Below are positions 5,619-46,931 of a DNA stretch of 46,931 nt, piece by piece (the first letter of the stretch is position 1; each line of letters starts with the position of its first letter). This stretch comes from Vineibacter terrae. GTDB taxonomy: Bacteria; Pseudomonadota; Alphaproteobacteria; Reyranellales; Reyranellaceae. Position numbers and translations under genes: made by a program. Location: NCBI RefSeq assembly GCF_008039615.1, contig NZ_VDUZ01000066.1:1-46931 (forward strand). Direction: 5' to 3'. Under the pieces are notes generated by a model. It worked only from the letters and a program-made list of their open reading frames with translations. It had not been told where the DNA came from and searched no databases.

Positions 5619-6599
5619 GTGGCGCGGCGCGGACAGGTGCGGGTGATCAAGGTGAGGCTCGGCTTCGGGACACGCTCCATGGCCGACACGCCGCTCGAAG
5701 GCATCGTACGCTGGGCGAGCCAGCACGGCTTCCAGTGCCTCGAGGTGGCGGCGCACGTGATGCGCGGCATGATGGATGACATGGACGATCTGCCGGCAGG
5801 CGCGGACTCCGGTGGCTACGGCGGCATGGGCCAGCTCGAGATCGTGGGCCTCACGGGCGAGCGCGTGAGCGCGCTCAAGCAGCTCCTGGCCGAAACCGGC
5901 GTGGGGATCAGCGCCATCGCCTACTATCCCAACCTGCTTCATCCCACGATGGGCCCGCCGGCGAAGGAGTGCGCCTTCCAGGTGATCGATGCGGCCGCGA
6001 TGCTGGGCTGCAACTGGACGACGCAGGTGGGACGCGACCCGCGGCTCGATGTCGCCGACAACCTCGACCTGTTCGAGGCGGTCTGGCCGGAGGTCGTCGA
6101 CTACGCCGAGCGCAAGTCGGTGAAGATCGCGATCGACAACGGGCCGCATCTCGACATGGCGCTGGCATGGCCGGCAGGCTTCAATGTCGCTACCACCCCC
6201 GCCGTGTGGCGGCGCATCTTCGAGATCTGCCCGCAGCGCAATTTCGGCCTGCACCTGGACACCTGGCATTTCGTCTACCAGCGGATCGATCCGGAATACG
6301 CCATCGAGAGCTTCGGCGACCGGATCATCAGCGTGCGCGCCAGCGACGGGCGCTGGAACCAGGCGGTGGCCAACGAGGTCGGGACCGTCGCGGTGCTGCC
6401 CCACCTGCTGGTGCAGCAGCGCGTCATCGGCACCGGCGATCTCAACCTGGGAAACCTGTTCGGCGCGCTATGGCGGGTCGGCTTCAACGGCGACGTGATC
6501 ATCGAGCATCGCGAGCCGTCCGGGACGTTCCGCGGCGCCGAAGGGGCGCGCAAGGCCCTGGTCGTGGGCAAGCGCCTGATCGGGCCGTATCTTATCTGA
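5619..6599 (+). CDS. Sugar phosphate isomerase/epimerase, xylose-isomerase-like TIM barrel
   Basis: This protein of up to 326 residues has the layout of AP-endonuclease-2 type TIM barrels. Likely metal-binding positions are the Glu of CLEVA, the Asp of AIDNGPH, the His pair of HLDTWHF and the Glu of IIEHRE, in the order usual for sugar isomerases and epimerases of this superfamily. The substrate cannot be told. The start is uncertain: GTG codons at 5619, 5637, 5643 and 5652 are in frame, none with a strong ribosome-binding site, and family members usually begin close to the first strand (RLGFGTRS), favouring 5643 or 5652. It stands alone between regulator and DUF3300 genes. Confidence 0.8.
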   Translation: MARRGQVRVIKVRLGFGTRSMADTPLEGIVRWASQHGFQCLEVAAHVMRGMMDDMDDLPAGADSGGYGGMGQLEIVGLTGERVSALKQLLAETGVGISAIAYYPNLLHPTMGPPAKECAFQVIDAAAMLGCNWTTQVGRDPRLDVADNLDLFEAVWPEVVDYAERKSVKIAIDNGPHLDMALAWPAGFNVATTPAVWRRIFEICPQRNFGLHLDTWHFVYQRIDPEYAIESFGDRIISVRASDGRWNQAVANEVGTVAVLPHLLVQQRVIGTGDLNLGNLFGALWRVGFNGDVIIEHREPSGTFRGAEGARKALVVGKRLIGPYLI

Positions 6600-6740
6600 G
6601 GATGGACACCCTCGCCGCCCCCGGGCGCGAGGCATGGGGGAGATCATGCACGCATCGCAGCCCGCCCGGTTCGGGTTTCGGTTAGCCGTTCTCGTGGATC
6701 ATGGTGAAACTGGCGCCCGCATGGCCAGACGGAGTGAAGG

Positions 6741-32980: not shown

Positions 32981-33018
32981 TGGATAGCGACCGTGCTTTC
33001 GAAGGCGCCGCCGAGAAC

Positions 33019-33777
33019 CTAGGCGGCGACATCGGCGCGCACGGCATAGACGTCGCCGGAGTTGGCCGCGTGCGGCAGCGCCATGAGCCAGCGCGCCATG
33101 GCCGCGTCATCGAGCCAGCTCTCATGCGCCAGGACCTGGCTTTCTCCCAACGCGGCGTTGAAGCGGTAGGACCCCAGCGCGGCGCAGCGTTGCAGGCAGG
33201 CCACGGCGACGCCACGCTGGATGGTGGTGAACTCGAACGAAAGCGCGCGCACCGCGCAGGACAGCCCCTGCAGGACCGCCTCCTCCAGCCCCTCGACATC
33301 GATCTTGATGAAGGCCGGCTCGCCGTGCTGCGCGATCAGCGCATCGAGCGTCGTGAGCGGCACCGTCACGCGGCCGGTCCAGCGCTCGCGCTCCCAGCCC
33401 GGACTGCCGTCGGCTGCCGCGATGAAGCCGGTCGAGCCGGTGGCCACGGTCGGGTTGGCGGGGTTGAGGTGCAGCTCGAGCGTGCCGCTGCGCGCGCCGG
33501 CCGCCGCCTCCAGGATCGTGACGCCCTCGGCGCGGCCGTAGAGCAGGCGCAGCACGCGCACGAGCGACGCCTGCGGCTCCAGCGCCACCACCCGGCAGCC
33601 CAGCCGGCGGAAGCACCGGATGCGATCGCCGACATGGGCGCCGATATCGAAGACCAGATCGCCGCGGCGCATGAAGCGGGCGTAGAGCTGGTCCATGCGG
33701 CGATGGCGCGCCGGATCGCCATGATAGACCCAGAGCGAGCGGCCGATGGCGGCGACCTGCTGCAGGGTCGTGAACAT
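33019..33777 (-). CDS. FkbM-family methyltransferase
   Basis: This 252-residue protein has the SAM-binding motif VFDIGAHVGD (42-51), a strand-2 acid in VVALEPQASL, and the FkbM hallmark TLDALIAQHGEPAFIKIDVEGLEEAVLQG, split here around the KIDVEG motif. FkbM enzymes O-methylate sugars and other hydroxyl groups. It lies six bases after the MdoH-like glucosyltransferase, so it may methylate the glycan made by that enzyme, or the product of the adjacent biosynthetic set. It converges on the LysR gene. Confidence 0.9.
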   Translation of the reverse strand: MFTTLQQVAAIGRSLWVYHGDPARHRRMDQLYARFMRRGDLVFDIGAHVGDRIRCFRRLGCRVVALEPQASLVRVLRLLYGRAEGVTILEAAAGARSGTLELHLNPANPTVATGSTGFIAAADGSPGWERERWTGRVTVPLTTLDALIAQHGEPAFIKIDVEGLEEAVLQGLSCAVRALSFEFTTIQRGVAVACLQRCAALGSYRFNAALGESQVLAHESWLDDAAMARWLMALPHAANSGDVYAVRADVAA

Positions 33778-33783
33778 CGGCGC

Positions 33784-35601
33784 TCAGTCCCCGTCGGCAG
33801 CGTCGGCCGTGGCCCGTGCATCGCCGACGAGGCCAGGCGGACCCAGGCGCACCAGCTCAGATGGCGGCGCCATTTCCTCGGGTATGGCGGCAAGCCCGAG
33901 CCGCTGCAGCGCCGCGCCCAGATCGCGACGGGCGCTCAGCATCGCGAAGGGAATCGCGAGCAGCAGCGGCGCGAAGAACGGGATCCCGTAGCCGAGCGCG
34001 CCCGGCGCCATCGCGACGAACCAGGCAAGCAGCCCGATGCCGCAGAGGGTCTGGACCCATAGGCGCTGCGCCGCCGCCGCGAGCGTCACGCGATGATCCT
34101 CGCGCACCGGCGCCGTCCAGCCGATCGCGCGTCCGACCACCAGGCCGCCGATGAACACGGTATGCGCCACGGCCATGATCGGCGCCAGGACCGCGAAGAA
34201 CACCGTCTCCAGGACGGCGCTGGCGATGAAGCGGAGCGCGCCGCCGAAACCGTCGGCAGCGCCGGGCCGGAGCAGTATGTCGAAGATGCTCGCGATCTTG
34301 GGCGCGAAGGTCATGCCCATCGCCACGAGGAAAAGCAGCACGCCCGTGTCCGGCCGGAACACCGGGCCCTGCGTCTCGATCAGCAGTCCTCGGAACGTCG
34401 CCAGCGCCACGAGCAGCATCCAGGCGGGCGAGCCGATGAACATCAGGATCGCCAGCGCGAGCTGGAACCGGCTGACCGGCTGCAGGCCGAGCATGGCGAG
34501 CAGCTTCCAGTACTGCATGTTGCCCTGGCACCAGCGCAAGTCGCGGCGAATGAACTCCAGCAGGGTCGGCGGGTTCTCTTCCCACGAGCCGGCCTCCTCG
34601 GGCAGGACGCGGACCTCATAGCCGGCACGCCGCATCAGGGCGGCCTCGACCTGGTCATGGCTCAATATGTCGCCCGCCAGCGGGCCACCGCCGGGCAGGA
34701 CCGGCAGGGCGCAATGCGCGATGAAAGGCGCCAGCCGGATGATGGCGTTGTGGCCCCAATAGGGTCCGCAATCACCCTGCCAGAACGCGCTGCCCAGGGT
34801 GTAGGACCGCATGCCCAGGCGCATGCCGAACTGGAAGATGCGGGCGAAGGGGCTGAGGCTGGGCCGGCCGACCACGAGGCTCTGCACGATGCCCAGCCGC
34901 GGATCGGCGGCGATCACCCGGATCAGCCGCAGCATCGCCGCCGGACTCATGAAGCTGTCGGCATCGAGCACCAGCGCGAAATCGAAATCCCCGCCCCAGC
35001 GCTGGCAGAAGTCGCGGATGTTGCCGGCCTTGAAGCCGGGATTGGCTTGCCGGCGCCGATAGGTGATCGGCAGCGCGGCGCCGAACCGGGCCGCCAGGCG
35101 CGCCGCCATGCCTTCCTCGGCCGCGGCGATGCCCGGCTGGTCGGTGTCGCTCAGCAGGAAGAGATGCAGATGCGGCGCGGCGCCGGTCGCGATCAGGCCG
35201 GCGGTCATCTCGGTGAGGTTGAGCTGCAGGCGCGCGACATCCTCGTTGCGCGTGCAGACCAGAATGGCGGTGCGGCCGCTGATCGCGGCATTGCTGCGGC
35301 CGAGCCGCACTGCCGGTGCGGCCAGCGCCGCAGGATCGCGCGCAAAGCGCATCAGCGCAAACCCGATCGCGGCGTTCCAGAAGCCGATCGCCGACCACGG
35401 CAAGGTCACGGCGAAGCATGCGAGCATCAGCCAGTCGACGATGTCGAGGCCGCCATCGCCCAGCGTATAGGCCATCAGCCCAAGCATCGCCGCCACGCTC
35501 GCCGTGACCAGCAGGGCAAAAACGATGCGGCGCCAGGCCATCTTCTGTGGCATATCGATCCGGTCGCGATGCGGCGGGATCGAAGGTGCAGGACCGGTCA
35601 T
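33784..35601 (-). CDS. MdoH/OpgH-like membrane glucosyltransferase
   Basis: This 605-residue GT2-family membrane enzyme has two N-terminal membrane helices (about 25-80), a cytoplasmic catalytic domain with DTDQPG, LVLDADSFMSP, LSHDQVEAALMRRAGYEV and RRDLRWCQGN (the R-W of the Q-x-x-R-W region), and five or more C-terminal helices. It matches the osmoregulated periplasmic glucan synthase OpgH, which polymerises UDP-glucose across the inner membrane, but is shorter than enterobacterial OpgH (over 800 residues). No opgG lies nearby. No clear ribosome-binding site precedes the ATG at 35601; ATG 35553 is an alternative. Confidence 0.88.
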   Translation of the reverse strand: MTGPAPSIPPHRDRIDMPQKMAWRRIVFALLVTASVAAMLGLMAYTLGDGGLDIVDWLMLACFAVTLPWSAIGFWNAAIGFALMRFARDPAALAAPAVRLGRSNAAISGRTAILVCTRNEDVARLQLNLTEMTAGLIATGAAPHLHLFLLSDTDQPGIAAAEEGMAARLAARFGAALPITYRRRQANPGFKAGNIRDFCQRWGGDFDFALVLDADSFMSPAAMLRLIRVIAADPRLGIVQSLVVGRPSLSPFARIFQFGMRLGMRSYTLGSAFWQGDCGPYWGHNAIIRLAPFIAHCALPVLPGGGPLAGDILSHDQVEAALMRRAGYEVRVLPEEAGSWEENPPTLLEFIRRDLRWCQGNMQYWKLLAMLGLQPVSRFQLALAILMFIGSPAWMLLVALATFRGLLIETQGPVFRPDTGVLLFLVAMGMTFAPKIASIFDILLRPGAADGFGGALRFIASAVLETVFFAVLAPIMAVAHTVFIGGLVVGRAIGWTAPVREDHRVTLAAAAQRLWVQTLCGIGLLAWFVAMAPGALGYGIPFFAPLLLAIPFAMLSARRDLGAALQRLGLAAIPEEMAPPSELVRLGPPGLVGDARATADAADGD

Positions 35602-35679
35602 TGCGATGTCATGTCGATTGGCGTCCGCCGTCTATCATCGATGCGCGAAGAGGCTAACCTTGGCAGCAGCGCCGAAGCA

Positions 35680-36672
35680 ATGGACCGCGCGTCGGGACAC
35701 GACACCGTGACCCGCGCGTTGTGGTACGCCGCTCCCGGACAGGCGATCCTGCGCACCGAGACGATACCGGCTCCCCGCCCCGATGAGGTGCTGGTCCAGA
35801 CACACTATTCGGCGCTGAGCCGTGGCACCGAGAGCCTCGTCTTCGCAGGCGCGGTGCCGGAAGCCGAGCACCATCGCATGCGCGCGCCGTTCCAGGCCGG
35901 CGCGTTTCCGTTCCCGGTGAAGTACGGCTATGCCGCCGTCGGCACGGTGATGGCCGGCCCGCACGACCTGCTGGGCCGCGCGGTCTTCGCGCTGCATCCG
36001 CATCAGAGCGCCTTCGTCGTGCCGGCAGCAGCGGTGGTCGCGCTTCCGGCAGGCCTGCCGCCGCGCCGCGCGGTGCTTGCCGCCAACATGGAGACCGCCC
36101 TCAACGCGCTGTGGGATGCCGCCGTCCTGCCGGGCAGCCGCATCGCCGTGGTCGGCATCGGCACGGTCGGCGCCCTGGTCGCCTGGCTCGCAGGCCAGAT
36201 CCCCGGCACCGAGGTCATTGCGGTCGACATCCGCCCCGAGCAGGCCGCGATCGCCGGCGCCCTGGGCGTCGGTTTCGCGACGCCCGGCAATGCGCCGATC
36301 GATTGCGATCTCGTCTTTCATGCCAGCGCCACGCCCGAAGGTCTTGCCACCGCCGTCGCCGCGGCAGGCGATGAAGCCACGATCATCGAGCTGAGCTGGT
36401 ACGGCGATCGCACGGTTGCAGCCACGCTCGGCGGCGCCTTCCACAGCCGGCGGCTGCGCCTGCTCGCGAGCCAGGTCGGCAGCGTGGCGCCGTCGATGCG
36501 GGCGCGCTGGCCGCACCGGCGGCGCCTTGCCCAGGCGATCGCGCTGCTGGCTGATCCGCGCCTGGAGGTGCTGCTCGAGCCGGACGTGGCATTCGAGGAC
36601 CTGCCCGGCGCGCTGCCGGCGCTGCTCGGGCCAGGCGGCGCCGCGATGTGCCAGGTCGTGACCTATCCCTGA
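35680..36672 (+). CDS. Medium-chain dehydrogenase/reductase, BchC-like, without structural zinc cysteines
   Basis: This protein of about 330 residues has the MDR layout: GroES-like N-domain (SALSRGTESLVFAGAVP, FPVKYGYAAVGTV) and Rossmann motif VVGIGTVGALVAWLAG. The four-cysteine structural zinc lobe of AdhP is absent, and the segment LHPHQSAFVVPA resembles the BchC-type dehydrogenases that oxidise a hydroxyethyl side chain. The substrate is unknown. ATG 35680 is a compromise: ATG 35641 and GTG 35707 are also in frame and none has a good ribosome-binding site. It begins a tight rightward run with the PTPS-fold, glycosyltransferase and methyltransferase genes. Confidence 0.82.
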   Translation: MDRASGHDTVTRALWYAAPGQAILRTETIPAPRPDEVLVQTHYSALSRGTESLVFAGAVPEAEHHRMRAPFQAGAFPFPVKYGYAAVGTVMAGPHDLLGRAVFALHPHQSAFVVPAAAVVALPAGLPPRRAVLAANMETALNALWDAAVLPGSRIAVVGIGTVGALVAWLAGQIPGTEVIAVDIRPEQAAIAGALGVGFATPGNAPIDCDLVFHASATPEGLATAVAAAGDEATIIELSWYGDRTVAATLGGAFHSRRLRLLASQVGSVAPSMRARWPHRRRLAQAIALLADPRLEVLLEPDVAFEDLPGALPALLGPGGAAMCQVVTYP

Positions 36673-36704
36673 ACCGCATCGATGCCGTACGAAGGAGCGT
36701 TGTC

Positions 36705-37106
36705 ATGTTCGCTGTCGAGGTCCGCGATCACATCATGGTGGCGCACAGCTTCCGGGGCGAGATCTTCGGCCCCGCCCAGCGCGTGCACGGCGCCACCTTC
36801 GTGGTCGATGCGGCGTTCATGACCCGCGATCTCGATGCCGCGGGGCTGGTGGTCGATATCGGCCGCGCGATCGCGATCCTGCGCGAGGTGCTCGAGCCGT
36901 TGAACTACCGCAACCTCGACGAGATGCCGGCGTTCGCCGGCAGGAACACGACCACTGAGTTCCTCGCCCGGCATATCCATGAGCGCATCGCCGCATGCGC
37001 CCGCGACGGCAGGCTCGGCCGGGCCGCGTCCGAGATCGACGCTCTGCGCGTCACCCTGTCCGAATCGCACGTGGCGCGCGGCTGGTACGAGGCGCCGCTT
37101 GCCTGA
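36705..37106 (+). CDS. 6-pyruvoyl-tetrahydropterin synthase/QueD fold protein, catalytically degenerate
   Basis: This 133-residue T-fold protein aligns over its whole length with QueD/PTPS. Compared with E. coli QueD as I recall it, zinc His16 and His31 are kept (His14, His28) and the pterin-anchoring Glu110 is kept (Glu120, in SESHVARGWYE), but Cys27 is Ala24, zinc His33 is Ala30 and the catalytic Asp70-His71 pair is Asn67-Tyr68. It should bind a pterin- or pyrimidine-like ring yet not do standard PTPS chemistry. AAGGAG precedes the ATG. Its stop codon overlaps the glycosyltransferase start. Confidence 0.85.
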   Translation: MFAVEVRDHIMVAHSFRGEIFGPAQRVHGATFVVDAAFMTRDLDAAGLVVDIGRAIAILREVLEPLNYRNLDEMPAFAGRNTTTEFLARHIHERIAACARDGRLGRAASEIDALRVTLSESHVARGWYEAPLA

Positions 37107-38157
37107 GCGTCGTGCGATCTTCGCCATCCCCGGTGATCTCGACACGCCGACCGGTGGCTACGCCTACGATCGGCGCATGATGGACGAGCTGCGCCGGCTG
37201 GGCTGGGACATCAGCCATGTCGCGCTGAGCGGCGCGTTTCCCCTGCCCGACGCGTCGACCCTGACCGCAACCTATCGCGTGCTGGCGCAATTGCCCGCTT
37301 CCATGCCCGTCATCGTCGATGGCCTGGCGCTGGGCGCGCTGCCCGATATCGGCCGCCATCTCGTCGCCCGGCGGCCGCTGGTGGCGCTGGTGCACCACCC
37401 GCTGGCGCTCGAAACAGGCATCACGGCGGCGCGTGCCGACGCCCTGCGGACAAGCGAGCGCGCAGCCCTTGCCGCCGCATCCCGTGTGATCGCGACCAGC
37501 CGCGCCACGGCCGTGGTGCTGACGGCTGAGTACGGCGTGCCGCAGGCGCGCATCACGGTCGCGCCGCCGGGCACCGATGCGGCGCCGCTCGCGGCGGTCG
37601 ATCATGCCGGCGCGCCGAATCTGCTGAGCGTCGGCACGCTGGTGCCGCGCAAGGGGCATGACCTGCTGATCGCGGCGCTTGCCACGCTGCAGGACCTGCC
37701 ATGGCGGCTCACCATTGTCGGCGCCGCGGACCGCGATCCGCCAACCACGGCGGCCTTGCGGCGCCTCATCGCCCAGGCCGGGCTCGACGAACGGATCAGG
37801 CTCGCCGACGCCGTGCCCGCCGAGGCGCTGCAGCAGCACTACCTCGCGGCCGATCTCTTCGTCCTCGCCTCGCGCTACGAAGGTTACGGCATGGCCTATG
37901 CCGAGGCGATCGCCCATGGCCTGCCGGTGATCGGCACCATGGCAGGCGCCATTCCCGAGGCGGTGCCCGAGGGTGCCGCCCTGCTGGTGCCACCGGAAGA
38001 TGTCCCGGCCCTGGCGGCCGCCTTGCGCCGCCTGTTGAGCGATGCCGCCGCACGCCGCGGCCTGGCGCGCGCGGCACGACAGGCCGCGCCACGCTTGCCG
38101 CGATGGCAGGACTCGGCTGCCTTGTTCGCCAGCGCCCTCGTGGCGGCACCGGCATGA
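37099..38157 (+). CDS. Family-4 glycosyltransferase (GT-B fold)
   Basis: This protein of about 352 residues has the two-Rossmann GT-B layout: N-domain with PGDLDTPTGGYAYDRRM (the glycine loop for donor or acceptor) and C-domain with LLSVGTLVPRKGHDLLIAAL and the E-x7-E motif SRYEGYGMAYAEAIAHGLPV, typical of retaining GT4 enzymes using nucleotide sugars. The start is taken as TTG 37099, overlapping the preceding stop by eight bases with ACGAGG upstream; no ATG lies near the family N-terminus. It is coupled at its end to the methyltransferase (ATGA). Confidence 0.88.
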   Translation: MPERRAIFAIPGDLDTPTGGYAYDRRMMDELRRLGWDISHVALSGAFPLPDASTLTATYRVLAQLPASMPVIVDGLALGALPDIGRHLVARRPLVALVHHPLALETGITAARADALRTSERAALAAASRVIATSRATAVVLTAEYGVPQARITVAPPGTDAAPLAAVDHAGAPNLLSVGTLVPRKGHDLLIAALATLQDLPWRLTIVGAADRDPPTTAALRRLIAQAGLDERIRLADAVPAEALQQHYLAADLFVLASRYEGYGMAYAEAIAHGLPVIGTMAGAIPEAVPEGAALLVPPEDVPALAAALRRLLSDAAARRGLARAARQAAPRLPRWQDSAALFASALVAAPA

Positions 38158-38990
38158 GCGCGTTCGCCGCCCAGTGGCTGGATCTGCGCGAGCCGGCCGA
38201 CCGGCGCGCCCGCAACGCCGATCTGCTGGCGACGGTGGCGCGCCACTTCAGCGACCACGCGCAGATCGCCGTGACCGATCTCGGTTGCGGCACCGGCGCC
38301 ATGATGCGCACGCTGGCCCCGCGCCTGCCCGCACGGCAGAGCTGGCGCCTGGTCGACCAGGACACGGGACTGCTGGACGCGGTCGAGCAGCGCTGCCGGG
38401 AAATGCCGCCGGCAATGGCCTGGCAACCGCACCAGGCCGACCTGCAGGAAGATCTCGAGGCTGTCATGGCGCTGCCGGCCGATCTGGTGACGATATCGGC
38501 GTTGCTGGATCTGACCTCGATCGCATGGCTCGAACGCCTCGCCGAGGCGGCGGCCACTCATCAGCGTCCGGTCTACGCGACGCTGACCTACAATGGCCGC
38601 ATCGCCTGCGAGCCGGCTGATCCGTTCGATGCTCAGGTCGCGTGCGCGTTCGACGCCCATCAGCGGCGTGACAAGGGCTTCGGCCACGCCAGCGGTCCGC
38701 TGGCCTCGACCCAGGCGATCGAGCAGCTTGCCGCGCGCCGCTTCATCGTGCGCCAGGCAGATGCCGATTGGGTGCTGGACGACAGTGAGCGCGCCCTGCA
38801 GGCAGAGCTGGTGCAGGGCTGGTATCAGGCCGCCTGTGAAGAGGATGTGCTCGACCGGCAGAAGCTCGACGGCTGGCTGGCGCGCCGGCTCGCAGCGGTC
38901 CGCGCCGGGCGCACGCGCCTCACCGTCGGGCACTGCGACATCTGGGCCTATCCGCCGGCGCCGAGATCGAGGTCGAGCAGCAGGTCCTGA
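38154..38990 (+). CDS. SAM-dependent methyltransferase in pterin-like cluster
   Basis: This 278-residue class I methyltransferase has motif I VTDLGCGTGAMM (from 40), motif II acid in LVDQDTGLLDAV and a helical C-terminal region. The acceptor is unknown; the context suggests a glycosylated ring compound. ATG 38154 overlaps the glycosyltransferase stop (ATGA), so both are made together. The last 43 bases overlap tail-to-tail with the RibD-like reductase gene, and the end is Arg/Ser-rich (PRSRSSSRS), encoded by that overlap. Confidence 0.85.
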   Translation: MSAFAAQWLDLREPADRRARNADLLATVARHFSDHAQIAVTDLGCGTGAMMRTLAPRLPARQSWRLVDQDTGLLDAVEQRCREMPPAMAWQPHQADLQEDLEAVMALPADLVTISALLDLTSIAWLERLAEAAATHQRPVYATLTYNGRIACEPADPFDAQVACAFDAHQRRDKGFGHASGPLASTQAIEQLAARRFIVRQADADWVLDDSERALQAELVQGWYQAACEEDVLDRQKLDGWLARRLAAVRAGRTRLTVGHCDIWAYPPAPRSRSSSRS

Positions 38991-39745
38991 TCCAGCCGCC
39001 AGGCGCGCATCGGCGGGCGCAGCGCCTGCTCGAGCCGATCGATCGTGGGCAGTGACAGGCCAGCCGGACCGGAGCCGATGATCAGCGGCGCCATGACGAC
39101 ATGCAGGCGCTGCAGGCAGCCCGCAGCGAGAAAGCGCGAGAGTGTCAGCGCGCCACCTTCGATCAGCACGCGATGCAGGCCCAGCCCGGTGAGCGCGCGC
39201 ATGATCGCCGCCGGCGCCAGCACGCCGGCGTCGTCATCGATGTCCAGCCTTTCGACATCGCCGGGCAGATCGGCCGCGGCGCGCGGTCGCGTCACGACGA
39301 TGCGGCGGCAGCCGTCGGCGGCAAGGAGCTTCGCGCCGCGCGGCATGCGGCCCTGCGGGTCGATGACGACGCGCGCCGGACTCGGGCCTTCGACCCTTCG
39401 CACGGTCAGCTGCGGATCATCGGCCAGCACCGTGCCGATGCCGACCACCACCGCATCGGCAAGCGCCCGCAGCCGATGCAGGTGGGTGATGGCGGCGGGG
39501 CCGTTGATGTAGTGTGAGTGGCCGCTCGCCGTGGCGATACGGCCATCGAGCGACTGGCCGATCTGGCCGATCACGAAGGAAGCGCGCGTTGTCGGTGCAA
39601 GCAGCGGCGCGAAGATGGACTGCCAAGGCTCGGCGATTTGAAGATCGGCACCATCGCGGGCGGCGCGGATATGCGACCAATCGATGTCGGACAGCGTTTC
39701 GAGGTGACCGAAGGAATTTCCCGCGTTCACGGACTGTTCAGTCAT
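38948..39745 (-). CDS. Stand-alone RibD C-terminal (pyrimidine reductase) domain protein
   Basis: This 265-residue protein matches the reductase half of RibD and the related DHFR-like fold: GQIGQSLDGRIATASGHSHY, then LRALADAVVVGIGTVLADDP, then RVVIDPQGRMPRGAKL and LIEGGALTLSRFLAAG. The deaminase half is missing, as in archaeal and fungal enzymes that reduce the ribosyl side chain of the pyrimidine intermediate to ribityl. The first 60 residues are an extra segment. ATG 39745 has AGGGG six bases upstream. It is divergent from the GTP cyclohydrolase II gene with only 55 bp between starts, so the two are surely co-regulated. Confidence 0.9.
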   Translation of the reverse strand: MTEQSVNAGNSFGHLETLSDIDWSHIRAARDGADLQIAEPWQSIFAPLLAPTTRASFVIGQIGQSLDGRIATASGHSHYINGPAAITHLHRLRALADAVVVGIGTVLADDPQLTVRRVEGPSPARVVIDPQGRMPRGAKLLAADGCRRIVVTRPRAAADLPGDVERLDIDDDAGVLAPAAIMRALTGLGLHRVLIEGGALTLSRFLAAGCLQRLHVVMAPLIIGSGPAGLSLPTIDRLEQALRPPMRAWRLDQDLLLDLDLGAGG

Positions 39746-39800
39746 GGACGACCCCTGCACGACATCTCACGTGTTAAATACCCCATGGGAGGAATTTGTT

Positions 39801-40958
39801 GTGGGATTGTACGAACATACGCGTTCAAACTTGGCCGACATGTCTCCACTTCCCATGCCCTTGCTCGCCAACACCCCGCTTGCCGCAACGCAACGGGCCA
39901 TTGGCGAGTTCGTTGCCGGGCGTCCTGTCCTGCTTGCCGATGGAGAAGGCGCGGCCCGGCTGGTCCTGCCGGTCGAGGGCCTGACCCCGGAGCGCCTGGC
40001 GGCGCTCGCTGCCTGCGCCGATGAACCGATCGACCTGTTCGTCTCCGGCACGCGCGCCGCCGCGCTCGGTGCGCGCAGCATTGGCGCGGGAGTCGTCCGG
40101 CTCGCGCCATCGAGCCGTTGCGAGCAGGTGCTCGCGCTTGCCGGCGCGGTCGACCTCCAGGTCATCGTCGACGCGGGCGACCGCGTCGCGGCAGCCGCCA
40201 TCGAGCTTGCCAAGCTTGCTCGCCTGTTGCCGGCGGCGCTGGCGGTTCGCTGGCACGCCGGGGGTAGCGCAGCACCGACCGGCGCCGTGTCGGGCGTGAC
40301 CGCGTCCGAGGTTCTGGCATTCCGCGCCGGGCTGGCGTCCTCGCTGCGCCTTGTATCCAGCGCGCGCGTACCTCTACATGACGCCGGCGACAGCAGCTTC
40401 GAGGTCTTCCGCGACGCTCTGGGCCAGTTCTGGACCGCCGTGGTGATCGGCGACGTGGACCGCACGCGACCGGTGCCGGTGCGGCTGCACTCGGCCTGCC
40501 TGACCGGCGATGCGCTCGGATCACGGCGCTGCGATTGCGGCGACCAGCTGCGCATGGCGATCGCCATGATCGCGGCGCGCGGCGGCGGCGTGCTGCTCTA
40601 CCTCGACCAGGAAGGCTGCGGCATCGGCCTGGCCAACAAGATGCGGGCCTACGCCCTGCAGGACCGCGGCGTCGACACCATCGACGCCAACACCACGCTC
40701 GGCTTCGAGCGCGACGAGAGGCGCTACGACATCGCCGCGCGCATGCTGCGGCTGCTCGGCATCGGCGAGGTCGCGCTGCTCACCAACAACCCGACAAAGA
40801 TGGCCGGCCTGCGCGAGGCCGGCGTCCTGATCGCCGAGCGCATCGCGCTGGTCGCGCCGGTGAACGAGAGCAACCGGGACTATCTGCGCGCCAAGCAGCA
40901 GCGTGCCGGCCATCTGATCGGCAGCGCGCAGCCCGACAGCGAGGTGCCCGATGCCTAA
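39801..40958 (+). CDS. ribA: GTP cyclohydrolase II with degenerate RibB-like N-terminal domain
   Basis: The C-terminal 190 residues are GTP cyclohydrolase II: zinc ligands Cys233, Cys244, Cys246 (CLTGDALGSRRCDCG), Asp305 and Arg307 matching the E. coli catalytic pair 126/128, and the NNPTKM loop. The GTP-contact Arg94 of E. coli (QEGR) is Cys273 here. The first 185 residues look like a decayed dihydroxybutanone-phosphate synthase: AIGEFVAGRPVLLADGEG keeps the frame of that family but lacks its acidic catalytic loop. GTG 39801 has GGAGG eight bases upstream; ATG 39744 and ATG 39840 are alternatives. It overlaps the cytochrome gene by eight bases. Confidence 0.9.
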   Translation: MGLYEHTRSNLADMSPLPMPLLANTPLAATQRAIGEFVAGRPVLLADGEGAARLVLPVEGLTPERLAALAACADEPIDLFVSGTRAAALGARSIGAGVVRLAPSSRCEQVLALAGAVDLQVIVDAGDRVAAAAIELAKLARLLPAALAVRWHAGGSAAPTGAVSGVTASEVLAFRAGLASSLRLVSSARVPLHDAGDSSFEVFRDALGQFWTAVVIGDVDRTRPVPVRLHSACLTGDALGSRRCDCGDQLRMAIAMIAARGGGVLLYLDQEGCGIGLANKMRAYALQDRGVDTIDANTTLGFERDERRYDIAARMLRLLGIGEVALLTNNPTKMAGLREAGVLIAERIALVAPVNESNRDYLRAKQQRAGHLIGSAQPDSEVPDA

Positions 40959-41484
40959 TCCACCGCTGCTGCGCTACACGGGGCCAGCGCGCCTGCTGCA
41001 TTGGACCATGGCCGTGCTGGTGCTCATGACCATCCCGGTCGGCTTCATCCTGCTCGATCTGCCGCAAGGGCGGCTGCAGGACACCCTGTTCGACCTGCAC
41101 CGCTCGATCGGGGTGCTGCTGTTCGTGCTGGTGGTCATCCGCCTCGGCTGGCGTCTGGCACATCCGCCGCCGCCCCTGCCCGACGATCTGCCCGCCTGGC
41201 AGCGCGCGGCATCGGGGACCGTGCACCGCCTGTTCTATGCCATCCTGCTGATCCAGCCGATCGTCGGCTGGTGGGGCACCTCGGCCTTCGGCGCGCCGAT
41301 CAACGTCTTCTGGCTGTTCGAGCTGCCGCCGCTCGTCAGCAAGGATGAAGCAGCGGCCAAGCAGATTCTCGGCTGGCACGGCATCATCGGCATCACCCTC
41401 TCGGTGGCCATCGCGATCCATGTCGGCGCGGCATTGTTCCACCATTTCGTGCGCCGCGACGCGGTGCTGCGCCGCATGCTGTGA
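40951..41484 (+). CDS. Cytochrome b561 family protein
   Basis: This 177-residue membrane protein has four predicted helices and conserved heme-ligand histidines: His17 (RLLHWTM), His50 (DLHRSIG), one in TVHRLFYA, one in LGWHGIIG and those in AIHVGAALFHHF. It resembles bacterial YodB/CybB proteins, which pass electrons between the quinone pool and an unknown periplasmic acceptor such as superoxide. The start overlaps the ribA stop codon, so the two are translated together, an unusual coupling for a riboflavin enzyme. Its stop codon directly abuts that of the convergent creatininase gene. Confidence 0.9.
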   Translation: MPNPPLLRYTGPARLLHWTMAVLVLMTIPVGFILLDLPQGRLQDTLFDLHRSIGVLLFVLVVIRLGWRLAHPPPPLPDDLPAWQRAASGTVHRLFYAILLIQPIVGWWGTSAFGAPINVFWLFELPPLVSKDEAAAKQILGWHGIIGITLSVAIAIHVGAALFHHFVRRDAVLRRML

Positions 41485-42321
41485 TCACGCGGGGCTCGGC
41501 GGCGCATTGCCCGCATCGAGCGGTCCGCTTTTGAGATTTGCCAGCGGATAGCGTGACACCTCCTGCAGCAATACGGCGAGCCGGGCGGCGACACGCTCGA
41601 CGATCGCATGGCCGGCTGCGGCGCTGGCAAGCCGGGCATCGCCGCAGGCTCCCAGCGGATGCAGGTCCTGCGTCGCCCAGCCCATCGCGACTTTCCCATG
41701 GAACCGCAGCTCGCGATGAGCTTTGTCGTGCGCGATCGAGGCCGGCTTGAATTCATCGATCAGCGCCGTGCGCACGCTGCCGGGCTGCAGGTGCAGCAGG
41801 ATCGACGTCTCGTTGGCGCCGGCATGGATGCCATGGCGGCGCTCCTCCTCCGGGAAGAGCCCAGCCGGCTCGCCGAAGGCGAAGGTGTTGGCGACGACGG
41901 CCAGCATGCCCAGCCGCAGCCGCAGATCGAGCGCCACGATGTCGCAAATCTGCGGCTGCCCACCATGCGAGTTGACGATCACCAGCTTGCGCAGGCCGGC
42001 GCGATGCACCGACTGTCCGATCTCGAACCAGACCCGTGAAAGCGTGTCCGCGCCCAGGGTCAGCGTGCCGGGAAAAGCCGCGTGCTCGTCGCTGCGCCCG
42101 ACCGGGAATGCCGGCAGGACGAGCAGTGGCGTATCCGCGTCGACCTGCGCCAGCGCCCGCTCGAGGATGCCGCGATTGATCATCGCATCGGTGGCCAGCG
42201 GCAGATGCGGGCCATGCTGCTCGATCGCGGCCACCGGCAGCACGACCACGCAGCGTCCGGCGTCAAGGCCGGCAAAATCCTGCCAGGTCAGCTCTTCCCA
42301 GCGGCGGACGTTTCCACTCAT
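41485..42321 (-). CDS. Creatininase-family amidohydrolase
   Basis: This 278-residue protein has the creatininase metal site: Glu34, His36 (IEQHGPHLP), Asp45 (LATDAM), His in IVNSHGG and Glu in AGANETS. The family contains creatininase, the mycofactocin protein MftE and the archaeal ArfB that removes formyl from the GTP cyclohydrolase product; the last is notable beside a GTP cyclohydrolase II and a RibD-type reductase. The substrate is unproven. ATG 42321 has GGAG upstream. The gene is transcribed from an AT-rich region shared with the FadH gene, where one of two identical palindromes lies 66 bp before its start. Confidence 0.9.
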   Translation of the reverse strand: MSGNVRRWEELTWQDFAGLDAGRCVVVLPVAAIEQHGPHLPLATDAMINRGILERALAQVDADTPLLVLPAFPVGRSDEHAAFPGTLTLGADTLSRVWFEIGQSVHRAGLRKLVIVNSHGGQPQICDIVALDLRLRLGMLAVVANTFAFGEPAGLFPEEERRHGIHAGANETSILLHLQPGSVRTALIDEFKPASIAHDKAHRELRFHGKVAMGWATQDLHPLGACGDARLASAAAGHAIVERVAARLAVLLQEVSRYPLANLKSGPLDAGNAPPSPA

Positions 42322-42387
42322 GCGAGGCTCCAGGACACCTGAGGGCAGAGGATGATCCGACGCCTCATCATCTGGCGGAAGCGTTTT

Positions 42388-42401
42388 ATATATCAATATA
42401 T
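42388..42401. promoter_or_regulatory. Palindromic operator candidate upstream of creatininase gene
   Basis: ATATAT-CA-ATATAT is palindromic, and on the minus strand it reads AATATATTGATATAT (42402-42388), the same 15-mer as the site before the FadH gene. It lies 66 bases upstream of the creatininase start in an otherwise AT-rich promoter region, probably the target of the MarR protein encoded at 44.7 kb. Confidence 0.6.
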
Positions 42402-42513
42402 TTACTTAAAAATTCCCTTAAGAAGCCACGCCCGAAGCGATGATGGCAGTGTTTACTAAAATGATCCCGCTTCGTGCACATGAATCCACTTTTCGAGTGA
42501 TCAAATTTAATAC

Positions 42514-42529
42514 AATATATTGATATATT
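42514..42529. promoter_or_regulatory. Palindromic operator candidate upstream of fadH-type gene
   Basis: AATATAT-TG-ATATATT has perfect 7-bp arms. It lies 61 bases upstream of the FadH-type start and overlaps a possible -10 (TACAAT, 42511-42516), the position expected for a repressor. The same 15-mer is found inverted at 42388-42402. Confidence 0.6.
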
Positions 42530-42590
42530 TGGCAGCACTTGATAGGTCGATGCGAAGTCCTCCGGAGCATAGCGAGGTTCGGAGCTCGGC

Positions 42591-44576
42591 ATGGCACACG
42601 ACCACTCTGCTCTCCTGAAGCCGATCCGCGTCGGCTCCATCACTCTGCCGAACCGGATCGTCATGGGGTCCATGCATACCGGGCTGGAGTGCCATCCCGA
42701 ACGCTTCGACGCGCTGGGGCGGTTCTATGCAGAACGTGCCCAGGGCGGTGCGGGGCTCATCGTGACCGGCGGCTTCGCGCCCAACTTCGCGGGGCGCATG
42801 AAGGACGAGCCGGGCACCTTCGAGCGTCCCGACCAGGTTGCAGACCATCACCGGATCACCGGGCCCGTCCACCGGGCGGGCGGCCGCATCCTGCTGCAGA
42901 TCCTGCATGCCGGCCGCTACGGATACCATCCCGCCATTGTCGCGCCGTCGCCGATCAAATCGCCGATCAATCGCGATGTTCCCGCCGAGCTGACGCCGGC
43001 TCAGATCGCCACGACCATCGCGGACTACGCGACAACCGCCCGGCTGGCGATCGAGGCCGGCTACGACGGCGTCGAGGTCATGGGCTCGGAGGGCTACCTG
43101 ATCAGCGAGTTCCTGGCGCCCAGGACCAATCATCGCACCGACGCGTGGGGCGGCACGCTGGCCAATCGCGCGCGCTTTCCCCTCGATGTCGTCAGGGCGG
43201 TGCGTGCCGCCATCGGCGATGCGATCCTGTCATACCGGATCTCGGCGCTGGAGCTGGTCGATGGCGGACTGACGCAGGACGAGACGCTCTGGCTGGCCAG
43301 GGCGGTCGAGAAGGCAGGCGCCGACTGCATCGCCACCGGGATCGGCTGGCATGAGGCAACCGTTCCCACGATCGCCGGCCCCGTCCCGCATGCCGCGTTC
43401 ATCGGGTCGACCCGCCGCCTGAAGGCGGTGGTCTCGATCCCGGTCACGGCAAGCAACCGGATCAACCTGCCGCAAGACGCCGCCAAGGTGATCGCCGACG
43501 GTTCTGCGGATCTCGTGTCCATGGCGCGGCCGCTGCTCGCGGACGCCGAATTCGCGAACAAGGTCAGCCGTGGCCGGCCCGATCTCGTCAATGTCTGCAT
43601 CGCCTGCAACCAGGCCTGCCTTGACCATTACTTCACCGACCAGGTCATCACCTGCCTGGTCAATCCGCGCGCGGCGCGCGAGAGCGATTTCTCCGATCAG
43701 CCGGCGCCGACGGCGAAGCGCGTCGCCATCGTCGGTGCCGGCGTCGCCGGCATTGCGGCGGCGCTCGAGGCGGCACGCCGGGGTCATCGCGTCACGCTCT
43801 TCGAATCGGCCGGCCGTATCGGTGGCCAGTTCGCGCTGGCAGCCAACATCCCCGGCAAGGAGGATTACGGGCTGTCGCTGCAAAGCCTGTCGGCGCAGCT
43901 CGCCGATTGCGGCGTCGAGATCGGGACGGGCTGCACGGTCGATCCGCGATCCCTCAGGCCGGCCGACTTCGACGAGGTCATCACCTCGACCGGCGTGACG
44001 CCCCGCCTGATCGACATTCCGGGCGGCGATGATCCCAGGGTGGTCGGCGACACCAAGGTCCTGGACGGCTCGGTCACGGCGGGCGAGCGTGTCGTCATCA
44101 TCGGCGGCGGCGGCATCGGCCACGACGTTGCGCTCTTCCTGGCGGCGGGCACCGGCGGCCGGCGGCAGGAATTCTTCGCACGATGGGGGATCGACGGCAG
44201 GCCCCTGCCCCATCCGCCGCGCCGGCAGATCACCATGGTGAAGCGCTCGCCCGGCAGCTTCGGCCGCACGCTCGGCAAGAGCACGGGCTGGATCCTGCGC
44301 CAGGAGCTCAAAAATCTCAAAGTCCGCCAGATCGCCGACGCGCGCTACGTGAAGATCGACAGCGAGGGCCTGCACATCGCCGTCGCGGATCGCATCGAGG
44401 TGCTGCCGGCCGACACGATCGTGGTATGCGCCGGCCAGGAGGCGGACCGGCGGATCGCCGATGCGATCGCAGCAAGCGGCCAACCGGTCCATGTGATCGG
44501 CGGCGCCAGGCTCGCCGGCGAGCTCGATGCCAAGCGCGCGATCCATGAGGGCGCCATCCTCGGCAACCGCATCTGA
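42591..44576 (+). CDS. FadH-type NADPH-dependent Fe-S flavoenzyme (2,4-dienoyl-CoA reductase-like)
   Basis: This 661-residue enzyme has an Old Yellow Enzyme TIM barrel (residues 1-330), a 4Fe-4S motif with Cys336, 339, 343 and 355 (CIACNQAC), an FAD domain (IVGAGVAGIAAALEA, about 380) and an NAD(P) domain (VIIGGGGIGHDVALF, about 500). Tyr169 (GSEGY) and His254 (GWHE) match the proton donors of E. coli FadH, and the long match supports 2,4-dienoyl-CoA reduction, though related trimethylamine or aromatic enoate reductases cannot be excluded. GGAG lies before the ATG. A MarR gene follows, likely its own regulator. Confidence 0.92.
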   Translation: MAHDHSALLKPIRVGSITLPNRIVMGSMHTGLECHPERFDALGRFYAERAQGGAGLIVTGGFAPNFAGRMKDEPGTFERPDQVADHHRITGPVHRAGGRILLQILHAGRYGYHPAIVAPSPIKSPINRDVPAELTPAQIATTIADYATTARLAIEAGYDGVEVMGSEGYLISEFLAPRTNHRTDAWGGTLANRARFPLDVVRAVRAAIGDAILSYRISALELVDGGLTQDETLWLARAVEKAGADCIATGIGWHEATVPTIAGPVPHAAFIGSTRRLKAVVSIPVTASNRINLPQDAAKVIADGSADLVSMARPLLADAEFANKVSRGRPDLVNVCIACNQACLDHYFTDQVITCLVNPRAARESDFSDQPAPTAKRVAIVGAGVAGIAAALEAARRGHRVTLFESAGRIGGQFALAANIPGKEDYGLSLQSLSAQLADCGVEIGTGCTVDPRSLRPADFDEVITSTGVTPRLIDIPGGDDPRVVGDTKVLDGSVTAGERVVIIGGGGIGHDVALFLAAGTGGRRQEFFARWGIDGRPLPHPPRRQITMVKRSPGSFGRTLGKSTGWILRQELKNLKVRQIADARYVKIDSEGLHIAVADRIEVLPADTIVVCAGQEADRRIADAIAASGQPVHVIGGARLAGELDAKRAIHEGAILGNRI

Positions 44577-44654
44577 CGTGGGCGCCATTGTTGCCCGCCG
44601 GTCGTTCTCATGCTTTTCCTCGGCTATCATGCGACCTGCCGATTGAACGACCGG

Positions 44655-45224
44655 ATGGCTACCCTGAAACACCCCCGAGCAGTCCCCAAGGATCATTCCG
44701 TCGGCGAAGCCGGCAGCACGCGGCCTGGGGGCACCGATCGCAGCGCCGATCTGCTCAACAACCGGATCTTCTTCCGGCTGTTTCAAGTCGCCAACACGCT
44801 GCAGCGCCAGGCCGTCAAGGAGCTGGGTGTCACAACCGTCCAGTGGGCCGTGCTGGGCGCCCTCTCCGACCCGCGGCCGACCTACGGCATCGCGGTCGGC
44901 ACACTTGCCGACTTTCTCGTCGTCAGCCGGCAGAATCTCGACGGCGTCTTGAAGCGCCTCGAGCGCGATGGCCTCGTGGAGAGGATCGCCGATGCGGAAG
45001 ACAAGCGGGCGCGTGTCGTGCGCCTGACACGCGAAGGGTTTGCGTTCTGGGCCGACCTGCGGCAGCGCATCTTCCAGTTCTACGATCAGGCCGTCAGCGA
45101 CTTTCGCTTCGATGACCGGGTAGCGCTGGCCCACTATCTCAATGAGCTCCAGCGGCAATTGCTGACCGTTCGCCTGCAGACGCCACGGCGCGACAGGAAG
45201 AAGAAGCGAGAGCTTGCGACGTAG
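44655..45224 (+). CDS. MarR-family transcriptional regulator
   Basis: This protein of about 189 residues has the MarR winged helix: GVTTVQWAVLGALSDP, recognition region GTLADFLVVSRQNLDGVLKRL and the wing DAEDKRARVVRLTREG. An extra 40-residue N-terminal segment and a Lys/Arg-rich tail (RRDRKKKREL) flank it. MarR dimers usually bind palindromes in their own operon and are released by phenolic or CoA ligands; two matching palindromes sit in front of the FadH-type gene. The start is uncertain: ATG 44655 is preferred over 44610, but neither has a good ribosome-binding site. Confidence 0.88.
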   Translation: MATLKHPRAVPKDHSVGEAGSTRPGGTDRSADLLNNRIFFRLFQVANTLQRQAVKELGVTTVQWAVLGALSDPRPTYGIAVGTLADFLVVSRQNLDGVLKRLERDGLVERIADAEDKRARVVRLTREGFAFWADLRQRIFQFYDQAVSDFRFDDRVALAHYLNELQRQLLTVRLQTPRRDRKKKRELAT

Positions 45225-45311
45225 GCTGGCAGACGTGGCAACCGAACTCGGCAACCGATCGGCGCCCAAGCAGAGCTTGGGCGCCGAGGCTGATGCAGCA
45301 GGAACGTCGGC

Positions 45312-45691
45312 CTAGCCGCGATGCATCGCGCAGATCTTGTTGCCGTAGGGATCGCGCAGATAGGCGAGGTAGAGCTTCGCGCCACCACCCTCACGCCAGC
45401 CGGGCGGATCCTCGATGCTCTTGCCGCCGTTGGCGATCCCCGCATCGTGGAAGGCCTGCGCCTTCTCGGGGCTATCACAGGCAAAGCCTATGGTGCCGCC
45501 ATTGGCATGTGTCGTCGCCTCGCCATCGATCGGTTTCGTGAGACCGAACAAGCCGGCCGGGGTGCGATAGAAGACCCGCCCCTTCGGGTCGGCCTTGCCC
45601 GCCGCGATACCGAGGGCGCCCCGAGCACCGCATCGTAGAACTTCTTCGATACGGCGACGTCGTCCGCGCCGACAAAGATGTGAGTGAACAT
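45312..45691 (-). pseudogene. VOC/glyoxalase-family gene broken by a frameshift
   Basis: The N-terminus (MFTHIFVGADDVAVSKKFYD, from 45691) and the C-terminus (GGTIGFACDSPEKAQAFHD to RDPYGNKICAMHRG) are consecutive parts of one vicinal-oxygen-chelate protein of about 125 residues but lie in different frames. The break is in a G-rich run near 45611-45624, just after DAVLGA, where two bases appear inserted or one lost; in the other frame the missing link reads ALGIAAGKADPKGRVFY. It is either a true pseudogene or a sequencing error. Confidence 0.8.
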
Positions 45692-45828
45692 CAATTCTCC
45701 TTTTGGCCAGTCAACGCAAAAGCACCGTGCCCCCGGCGATCGAGGATCGGTAAGCAAGCCGGCACGAGCCGAATTGTACAAGCCGGAGCGCCCATTTCAC
45801 GGTCGCTGCCGGCAACCCTCCCATGCGG

Positions 45829-45950
45829 ATACGCCTGGGGCTCGCGATCAGGATGGCTCGCTCCCTCGCGGGTCTTGCGATTGGCCGCAGCCGATAGCCC
45901 AGCTGGTGCAGTAGCTCGCTCACCAGCGTGCGGCCCGACCTGGTGGCCCT
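45829..45950 (-). pseudogene. Remnant of an ISAzo13-type transposase
   Basis: Two adjacent frames together give RTLVSELLHQLGYRL then ANRKTREGASHPDREPQ, which matches the conserved L-L-x-x-L-G-Y-S-L-Q-x-N-R-K-T-x-E-G-x-x-H-P-D-R stretch I know from ISAzo13-family transposases; one base is missing at the junction (CTGC-GGCC). Only about 40 codons survive, with no recognisable ends or flanking duplication. It lies between the broken VOC gene and the pRiA4b ORF-3 family gene. Confidence 0.7.
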
Positions 45951-45959
45951 GATCGCGGG

Positions 45960-46559
45960 TCACACCATGCGTTTCTTTCTTGCGGGAGGTTTCCGCGACC
46001 ATCGCCTTGCGAGCTTGGCAACCTCGGCTTTGAGGGAGTCGGGATCGAAAGCGCGCGGATCGAAGTCGTCACCGATCCACTCACGGATTTCAGCATGACG
46101 CTCGTGCCGCGGGTTATCGAGAGCTTCGAGCATCTCGGCGTAACCCCAGGGACCACCGACATCTTCGGGTGGACAACGCCCGGACGCCTCGGTGAGACGG
46201 GGATAAGCGACGTTGGGTTCGGAAGCGATCATCCGCTCGATCTTGATCGTGTGCTCCCAGCCGTCGCCGAAGTCATAGAGATAGCGCAGCGACTTGGTTC
46301 CGATGTCTTCGAGCACATCGATGAGCTTCGCCTTGCGCGCGTCGAGCGGGCCGTCGGGCCAGTCGGAGTCCGGCAGGCCCCAGCCCGTGTCGCGGGCGCG
46401 GATTTCATAGAGATGGCTATTGGTCCAACCAAGAGCCGCCTGTAGCGTCAGATGCAGCCGGTCGAGCTTGATGTTCGCGGGGACTTCGATCCGGCGCAAA
46501 ACCTGGGGCTCGACATCGTCGAGCGTGACTTTGAGGCAGAAGATGTCGGCGGTGCTCAT
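45960..46559 (-). CDS. Plasmid pRiA4b ORF-3 family protein
   Basis: This 199-residue protein matches the pRiA4b ORF-3 family, also seen as passenger genes of some insertion sequences: FCLKVTLDDVEPQVLRRIEVP, LHLTLQAALGWTNSHLYEI, LRYLYDFGDGWEHTIKIE and GGPWGYAEMLEAL are all standard. Its function is unknown; it has no membrane segments and a Lys/Arg-rich tail. ATG 46559 has no strong ribosome-binding site. Lying beside a transposase scrap and a tRNA gene, it was probably brought in by a mobile element. Confidence 0.9.
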   Translation of the reverse strand: MSTADIFCLKVTLDDVEPQVLRRIEVPANIKLDRLHLTLQAALGWTNSHLYEIRARDTGWGLPDSDWPDGPLDARKAKLIDVLEDIGTKSLRYLYDFGDGWEHTIKIERMIASEPNVAYPRLTEASGRCPPEDVGGPWGYAEMLEALDNPRHERHAEIREWIGDDFDPRAFDPDSLKAEVAKLARRWSRKPPARKKRMV

Positions 46560-46764
46560 GCCGCGAGCTTACGATGATCCTAGTCAGCCGCCCACTCCCG
46601 CGGCAACAAATCGTCAAGCCAATGCAAGGGATGATCGGTTACGCGCGAAGGACGCAAGCCAGGCTTTGCAATCGACGTCCAGCCGCGCAGTCATATCAGC
46701 GCCGGAGCAACGGCCCAGCCCGCTGCAGTCTCGAGGTTGCAGCCTTGCGTGGCCCGCAACGCGA

Positions 46765-46794
46765 ACAGCCCCAGCGTTTGTGTGCTGGGGCTGT
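46765..46794 (-). terminator. Hairpin downstream of tRNA-fMet
   Basis: An 11-bp perfect stem (46765-46775 with 46784-46794) and eight-base loop lie 10 bases past the 3-prime end of the tRNA on its strand. The T-run is weak (TTCGCGTT), so it is a probable but not ideal terminator. Confidence 0.65.
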
Positions 46795-46804
46795 GGTTGT
46801 GATG

Positions 46805-46881
<77 letters not shown>

Positions 46882-46931
46882 GTGGTGAGGGTGGAGTGAA
46901 GAGGGTGCATGTGCTGCGCGCCTTGGAAGGC

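Follow-up and report, generated by a model that had tools for sequence, protein, structure and literature searches.

What would an alphaproteobacterium make with a cluster that combines protein families of the riboflavin pathway with a glycosyltransferase and a methyltransferase? The question is raised by eight genes at positions 35680-42321 of a 46,931-nucleotide contig (NZ_VDUZ01000066.1, hereafter the window) from the 8.76 Mb genome of Vineibacter terrae. A preliminary description had proposed that they form an undescribed pathway from GTP to a glycosylated pyrimidine, pterin or flavin-like compound. The eight adjacent, tightly packed genes are all present at the positions it gave, and Pfam and NCBIfam confirm their families except for a weak MDR assignment. 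We hold, with slightly better than even confidence, that the cluster encodes a horizontally moving pathway from GTP that branches where riboflavin synthesis does and yields a methylated glycoside that is not a flavin. What we observed is the gene set and its conservation, a number of gene fusions, the states of key residues and one separate acquisition of the cluster.

The view of these genes as one conserved module was borne out by their neighbourhoods in other genomes. With a profile of the PTPS-like protein (the PTPS variant) as bait (E <=1e-20) and neighbours counted within 9.5 kb, the variant was found in 45 of 385 genomes of the window's class (33 of 276 genera), accompanied by the MDR-type dehydrogenase in 44 loci, the GT4 glycosyltransferase in 43, the methyltransferase in 39 and RibD in 36. 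All five core genes occur together in 31 of the 45, and the MDR, PTPS, GT4 and methyltransferase genes in 38. The midpoints of the MDR and PTPS variant genes are at most 3 kb apart in 44 of 45 loci and at most 9.5 kb apart in 20 of 20 further loci, so the grouping is far beyond chance. Where both flanks are complete (34 loci), the counts are MDR 34, GT4 33, methyltransferase 30, RibD 27, RibA 16, b561 8 and creatininase 7. The other neighbours in the 45 loci are optional (RibA 18, CDP-alcohol transferase 13, MdoH 11, b561 10, creatininase 9) or rarer still (FkbM 7, sulfatase-like 5); the figure for RibA is 18 rather than 19 because L113 lacks the cyclohydrolase part. As these counts allow one family per frame and miss fused genes, a recount over the whole stretch with fusions included gave 15 for the CDP-alcohol transferase and 12 for YceI. 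The idea that the families are conserved together, run as a set, thus stands for the core genes but not for all eight, which meet in only three of 45 loci (the window, L092 and L094). Three pairs of rows are redundant, their contigs being the same judged by length and content (L092/L016, L094/L017 and L075/L015).

The same gene set extends to other lineages. In a sample of the phylum, 27 of 398 genomes have the PTPS variant; 20 of these were newly read (four were already in the set, and G572, G581 and G673 were left out), and the new loci contain MDR (20), GT4 (19), methyltransferase (19) and RibD (17), with CDP-alcohol transferase (12), flippase-like (11), MdoH (9), RibA (8), creatininase (5) and b561 (5) genes as partners. 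A second class of the phylum, that of G441, has the variant in 16 of 369 genomes, and the ten newly read loci (two were already in the set and four were left out) hold MDR in nine, GT4 in ten, methyltransferase in nine and RibD in seven. Carriers beyond the window's class include Streptomyces and a Chromatiaceae species, and the variant is also present in 20 plasmid records, from Streptomyces, Microbacterium, Arthrobacter, Thiodictyon, Methylosinus, Rhizobium and others; in eight of the ten records read, MDR adjoins it, the other two being Streptomyces copies that stand alone. Among close relatives the distribution is patchy, with a methyltransferase match (E <=1e-20) in 4 of 41 genomes. The core is retained in six genomes of 1.0-1.6 Mb with a stated completeness of 94-99%: G185, G282 and G359 (1.4-1.6 Mb; stretch GC 26-28%) have MDR, PTPS, GT4, methyltransferase, RibD, RibA and creatininase genes, and G898, G1006 and G1098 (1.0-1.1 Mb; stretch GC 29-31%) have YceI, CDP-alcohol transferase, MDR, PTPS, GT4, methyltransferase, flippase-like and RibD genes.

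Patchiness and plasmid-borne copies would suit an antibiotic cluster of the toxoflavin or pseudoiodinine type (tox, psd), in which GTP cyclohydrolase II, RibD and a methyltransferase lead to an azapteridine. Such clusters resemble ours in having a GTP cyclohydrolase II, a RibD-family protein and a methyltransferase, and in converting GTP to something other than a flavin (PMC9911603). However, retention in genomes of 1.0-1.6 Mb is unusual for an antibiotic, and WD-40, sulphatase-modifying-factor and deaminase domains, the last in the form of a deaminase-type RibD, are absent from the eight window proteins, which include PTPS-like, GT4, MDR and creatininase-family proteins as extras. We consider an antibiotic rather improbable.

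A further line of support for the GTP-derived glycoside comes from gene fusions and covariation. The GT4 glycosyltransferase (37099..38157, plus strand; PF13692/PF00534) and the class I S-adenosylmethionine (SAM) methyltransferase (38154..38990, plus strand; PF13649, 32.6 bits) are fused into a single frame in six genomes (L154, L156, L157, L158, L159 and L161), which represent two genera, and a CDP-alcohol transferase and FkbM share a single frame in L127 and L128. The five core proteins covary in their pairwise identities (Spearman 0.57-0.70, 43 loci), and RibA identities follow those of the core proteins (0.74-0.81, 24 loci), shared ancestry contributing to both; L083 was excluded from this analysis. 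As to horizontal movement, G000 and G003 belong to one genus and have a syntenic RibA locus at 90% identity, whereas their cluster core proteins are only 40-63% identical and their partners differ. The cluster has been acquired separately in this pair.

If the core is conserved, what might its proteins do? The MDR-type dehydrogenase (35680..36672, plus strand) has a conserved Gly motif and is at best weakly BchC-like, scoring 40.9 bits against an NCBIfam BchC cut-off of 291; other MDR models are also far under their cut-offs, and it has no Pfam match. The protein originally described as having the PTPS/QueD fold (36705..37106, plus strand) does belong to that family (PF01242, 73.6 bits), but an enzyme of that kind is not supported. 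Its sole match among PDB sequences (phmmer, E <=0.01) is SCO6650 of Streptomyces coelicolor (3d7j, E 1.2e-41), over residues 1-130 of 133, and on sequence comparison it is an orthologue of that protein. Ala24 occupies the position of the catalytic Cys, Ala30 that of one zinc His and Tyr68 that of the triad His; the SCO6650-type family has Ala, Ala and mostly Tyr at these positions (alignments of 23 rows and of 81 loci), and a profile alignment to the putative PTPS 2g64 shows the same positions replaced. Glu85 and Glu120 are retained in the family, and the FGPAQ and HGAT positions are at least 93% conserved over the 81 loci. With 39.1 bits against a cut-off of 89.25, the protein falls below the QueD equivalog model, and since the catalytic Cys, zinc His and triad His are lost, a PTPS or QueD role cannot be assumed. 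SCO6650 itself is reportedly without zinc, without the triad and without PTPS activity.

The retained glutamates bear on a reading in which the product is a true pterin. Here the T-fold protein would rearrange and close the product of GTP cyclohydrolase II, the two amounting to a split GTP cyclohydrolase I, and the RibD-type protein would reduce a pterin rather than a ribosyl chain; the outcome would be a reduced pterin that carries a sugar, in the manner of cyanopterin or limipterin. Persistence of Glu85 and Glu120 despite the loss of the catalytic Cys and zinc His speaks for this, but we know of no precedent for a zinc-free cyclising T-fold enzyme, and the RibD-type protein has as its closest PDB relative one named a ribosylaminopyrimidine reductase. 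Cyanobacterial pterin glycosides are made with GTP cyclohydrolase I and a genuine PTPS, whereas a search of the V. terrae genome found no PTPS-family gene other than the SCO6650-type variant. Pterin glycosides do occur in cyanobacteria and Chlorobium, and in the cyanopterin system (PgtA) a pterin-type ring likewise receives its sugar from a dedicated glycosyltransferase (PMC3546692); all told, we regard a true pterin as possible but doubtful.

The RibD-type reductase points to a pyrimidine substrate. This stand-alone protein (38948..39745, minus strand, start uncertain) has RibD_C alone (PF01872, 130.5 bits), and its PDB relative, 6p8c, is a 2,5-diamino-6-ribosylamino-pyrimidinone 5'-phosphate reductase by name. 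Just before the SLDG motif, where ordinary RibD has Lys (6 of 6 proteins, including a copy on contig C32 of this genome), the window protein has Gln and 6p8c has Asn; 67 of 68 cluster copies have Gln or His, and one has Leu. Both marks of a bacterial RibD, the deaminase domain and this Lys, are therefore missing from the window protein. We take the Lys of ordinary RibD to sense the deaminated ring, and because it is replaced the substrate is probably a 2,5-diamino, non-deaminated pyrimidine. Nine genomes with the PTPS variant have no linked RibD; three of them carry a cluster-type RibD elsewhere (236-285 bits), and in one of the three, G060, the contig stops within the cluster. Twelve genomes that lack the PTPS variant also lack such a RibD, their best score being 153. 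In L181, from a 1.0-Mb genome, RibD (6470-7046) is split over two frames and may be a broken gene or a sequencing error.

The assignment of the next gene (39840..40958, plus strand, start maybe 39744) to GTP cyclohydrolase II, or RibA, is sound. It scores 181.3 bits with PF00925 and lies above the cut-off of NF001591 (NF006456 scores best, yet below its own cut-off), and the alignment shows three Cys and the Asp, Arg and Tyr positions kept, which presumably serve in zinc binding, in catalysis and as the Tyr switch. Its N-terminal RibB domain is degenerate, without the DDEDRENEGD-type and GHTE motifs whose intactness would mark a bifunctional RibBA. In a study of 2006 the GTP cyclohydrolase II SCO6655 reportedly halts at a formylamino product owing to Met in place of Tyr. 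Met is found at the switch position in S. fungicidicus L085, where the RibA gene stands beside a creatininase gene, and Tyr in 31 other readable cluster copies; a formylamino-making cyclohydrolase in the window is unsupported, its switch residue being Tyr rather than Met. At residue 260 the window protein and those of L015, L018, L092 and L094 have Cys instead of the Arg of the EGR motif, which the remaining readable copies retain.

We considered whether RibA is dedicated to the cluster. A profile of this RibA type, with its degenerate RibB domain ahead of the cyclohydrolase part (E <=1e-75), matches 144 of the 385 genomes in the class: 37 of 45 with the PTPS variant vs 107 of 340 without it, although both lineage and genome size confound the comparison. 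In a tree of 46 rows cluster and non-cluster copies are intermixed, with at least three changes. The matches in PTPS-negative genomes and the mixed tree weaken the idea. The optional presence of RibA fits a supply of opened GTP from another genomic copy.

Could the cluster simply make riboflavin? In this respect the preliminary description was not supported, for a Pfam scan found no lumazine or riboflavin synthase among the eight proteins, and a flavin product is unlikely for that reason. On contig C32 a Lys-type RibD, a RibBA-like gene (its cyclohydrolase part above the Pfam cut-off, its zinc Cys not recovered in the alignment) and RibH are grouped; C5 has another RibH, and C12 another GTP cyclohydrolase II, which retains its zinc Cys. 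With RibA, RibD and RibH genes elsewhere, it is improbable that the cell makes riboflavin only through this module, although riboflavin synthase (RibE) was not searched for. It might still supply additional riboflavin, for instance flavins for secretion, since three of its members (GTP cyclohydrolase II, the RibD-type and the creatininase-type protein) belong to riboflavin-pathway families and Sinorhizobium meliloti has a separate formamidase branch (PMC9478397). We judge this very improbable: a deaminase is missing from the eight proteins as well as the two synthases, the RibD position is altered, a riboswitch family search of 33000-46931 gave no match, and the core PTPS-like, GT4 and MDR genes have no riboflavin role.

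The last gene encodes a creatininase-family hydrolase (41485..42321, minus strand; PF02633, 233 bits), for which a formamidase role had been suggested by reference to archaeal ArfB. The ArfB model NF033501 gave only 20 bits against a cut-off of 180, but the idea gains a bacterial precedent in BrbF, annotated as a creatininase, which deformylates a formylamino-pyrimidine derived from GTP (PMC9478397). By this analogy and from its neighbourhood, the window protein is a probable formamidase. It is also distinct from its paralogues, scoring 354 bits with a profile of the cluster copies vs 158 or less for five other family members in the genome, and the metal ligands (E, H, D and H positions) are kept in 20 of 20 aligned cluster copies. 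In a pooled set of 75 loci the creatininase gene accompanies RibA in 11 of 28 vs 4 of 47 without RibA (p 0.002, kinship uncorrected); a strict coupling of the two was rejected, being not significant in the 45-genome sample. A creatininase-family protein beside GTP cyclohydrolase II, both here and in L085, together with the BrbF precedent, might also be read as repair or breakdown of damaged guanine nucleotides (formamidopyrimidine, or FAPy, lesions) by the hydrolases and the reductase. That would leave the GT4, the methyltransferase and the envelope partners unexplained, the first two of which are more conserved than the hydrolases, and we give it scarcely any credence.

We thus return to a methylated glycoside that branches from the riboflavin route. 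The preliminary claim of a modified, glycosylated and methylated pyrimidine or pterin from GTP is partly supported: the conserved module and the residues kept in RibA speak in favour, but a flavin is unlikely and a classical PTPS step cannot be assumed. We infer the reactions and their order, the ring type (pyrimidine or pteridine), the glycoside and its fate at the envelope as follows. GTP cyclohydrolase II, whether the cluster's own or another genomic copy, would open GTP, and the creatininase-family protein, where present, would deformylate any formylamino (FAPy-type) intermediate. The RibD-type reductase would then act on the 2,5-diamino pyrimidine, reducing its ribosyl side chain; the T-fold protein may bind a pterin-like ring and assist its closure or modification; and the MDR dehydrogenase may oxidise or reduce a side chain. 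The GT4 and the methyltransferase would jointly glycosylate and methylate the ring compound, which could finally be joined to lipid or exported to the envelope. This last step is suggested by the CDP-alcohol transferase, flippase-like, sulfatase-like, MdoH-like, YceI and b561 partners in many lineages. No locus of the 45 has both MdoH and the CDP-alcohol transferase, yet L154 and L162 do, so that the two are not exclusive alternatives. A bolder version, in which a pathway spread over at least two phyla and even genomes of about 1 Mb makes a lipid-joined, flipped pteridine or diaminopyrimidine glycoside that acts with b561 and YceI as an envelope redox or light-absorbing factor, and hence as a new class of cofactor, strikes us as conceivable but unlikely.

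Several points weigh against the pathway as we propose it. The envelope partners vary between lineages and could have another function. Linked RibA and creatininase genes occur in just 18 and 9 of the 45 loci, respectively, and in that sample their association is not significant (p 0.13). The methyltransferase is missing in L028, L093, L096, L120, L122, L133 and L165 (and in L132, which is cut by a contig end), and GT4 in L133, L132, L088 and L169. In six of the nine genomes lacking a nearby RibD no cluster-type copy was found at all, one of these genomes being 68% complete, and the Streptomyces copies of the PTPS variant in L086 and L089 have no cluster partners. These two plasmid-borne genes (L086 12001-12399, L089 10001-10426) lie near MEKHLA, cupin and MBL-fold genes.

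How new is the system? To call the pathway undescribed was too strong because Streptomyces proteins of this type have been studied earlier: the structure of SCO6650 is solved (3d7j), and work from 2006 on altered GTP cyclohydrolase II proteins of S. coelicolor is cited in PMC3509567. The window protein shares with SCO6650 the residues at the lost catalytic positions, and in L085 a set of MDR, PTPS, GT4, methyltransferase, flippase-like and creatininase genes stands with the Met-switch RibA. The window differs in its Tyr switch and degenerate RibB domain and in its links to RibD, b561 and MdoH, no RibD having been found in L085. The BrbF branch of S. meliloti (SMc02977) is alike in its creatininase-family protein, a likeness of annotation and family only; in Rhizobium-type genomes brbF stands beside MarR and CobW genes and riboflavin requires BrbF, whereas the window gene sits in a different cluster (PMC9478397). 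The cyclohydrolase that partners BrbF is described there as undiscovered, and the RibA family of the window and L078 (G000 contig C12) is a candidate for it. For the gene set as a whole we found no description in the open literature, most subscription papers being outside the search. In public records its genes bear names taken from other functions: 6-carboxytetrahydropterin synthase, RibA, RibD, alcohol dehydrogenase and creatininase.

At the locus itself, the intergenic gaps are 32, -8, -4, -43, 94, -8 and 0 bp in gene order. Six of the eight genes are on the plus strand, and because RibD and the creatininase gene are on the minus strand there must be at least three transcription units rather than a single operon. 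A promoter and terminator scan of the locus gave a result near chance. Cytochrome b561 (40951..41484, plus strand; PF01292) is an optional member, and with only 10 of 45 loci having it nearby, the redox role first proposed for the product together with b561 is speculative. The conserved unit reaches past 35680, for an accessory MdoH/OpgH-like glucosyltransferase (33784..35601, minus strand; NCBIfam MdoH models) and an accessory FkbM-family methyltransferase (33019..33777, minus strand; PF05050) to the left recur in related clusters. The nearest named relative at this locus is Reyranella sp. CPCC 100927, whose RibA is 81% identical. In two Rhodobacterales plasmid clusters, L083 and L088, a PfkB/ribokinase-like gene stands beside the core, the latter being one of those without GT4. 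Close to the contig end, the window also has a tRNA gene (46808-46881, minus strand).

Roughly one genome in nine of those sampled from the window's class has the gene set, and so do members of other groups. A conserved small-molecule pathway that very small genomes retain would mean that a cofactor, pigment or envelope component is missing from present accounts. The gene lists and residue states given here make the pathway directly testable, and its elucidation would explain the role of SCO6650, a protein whose structure is already solved.

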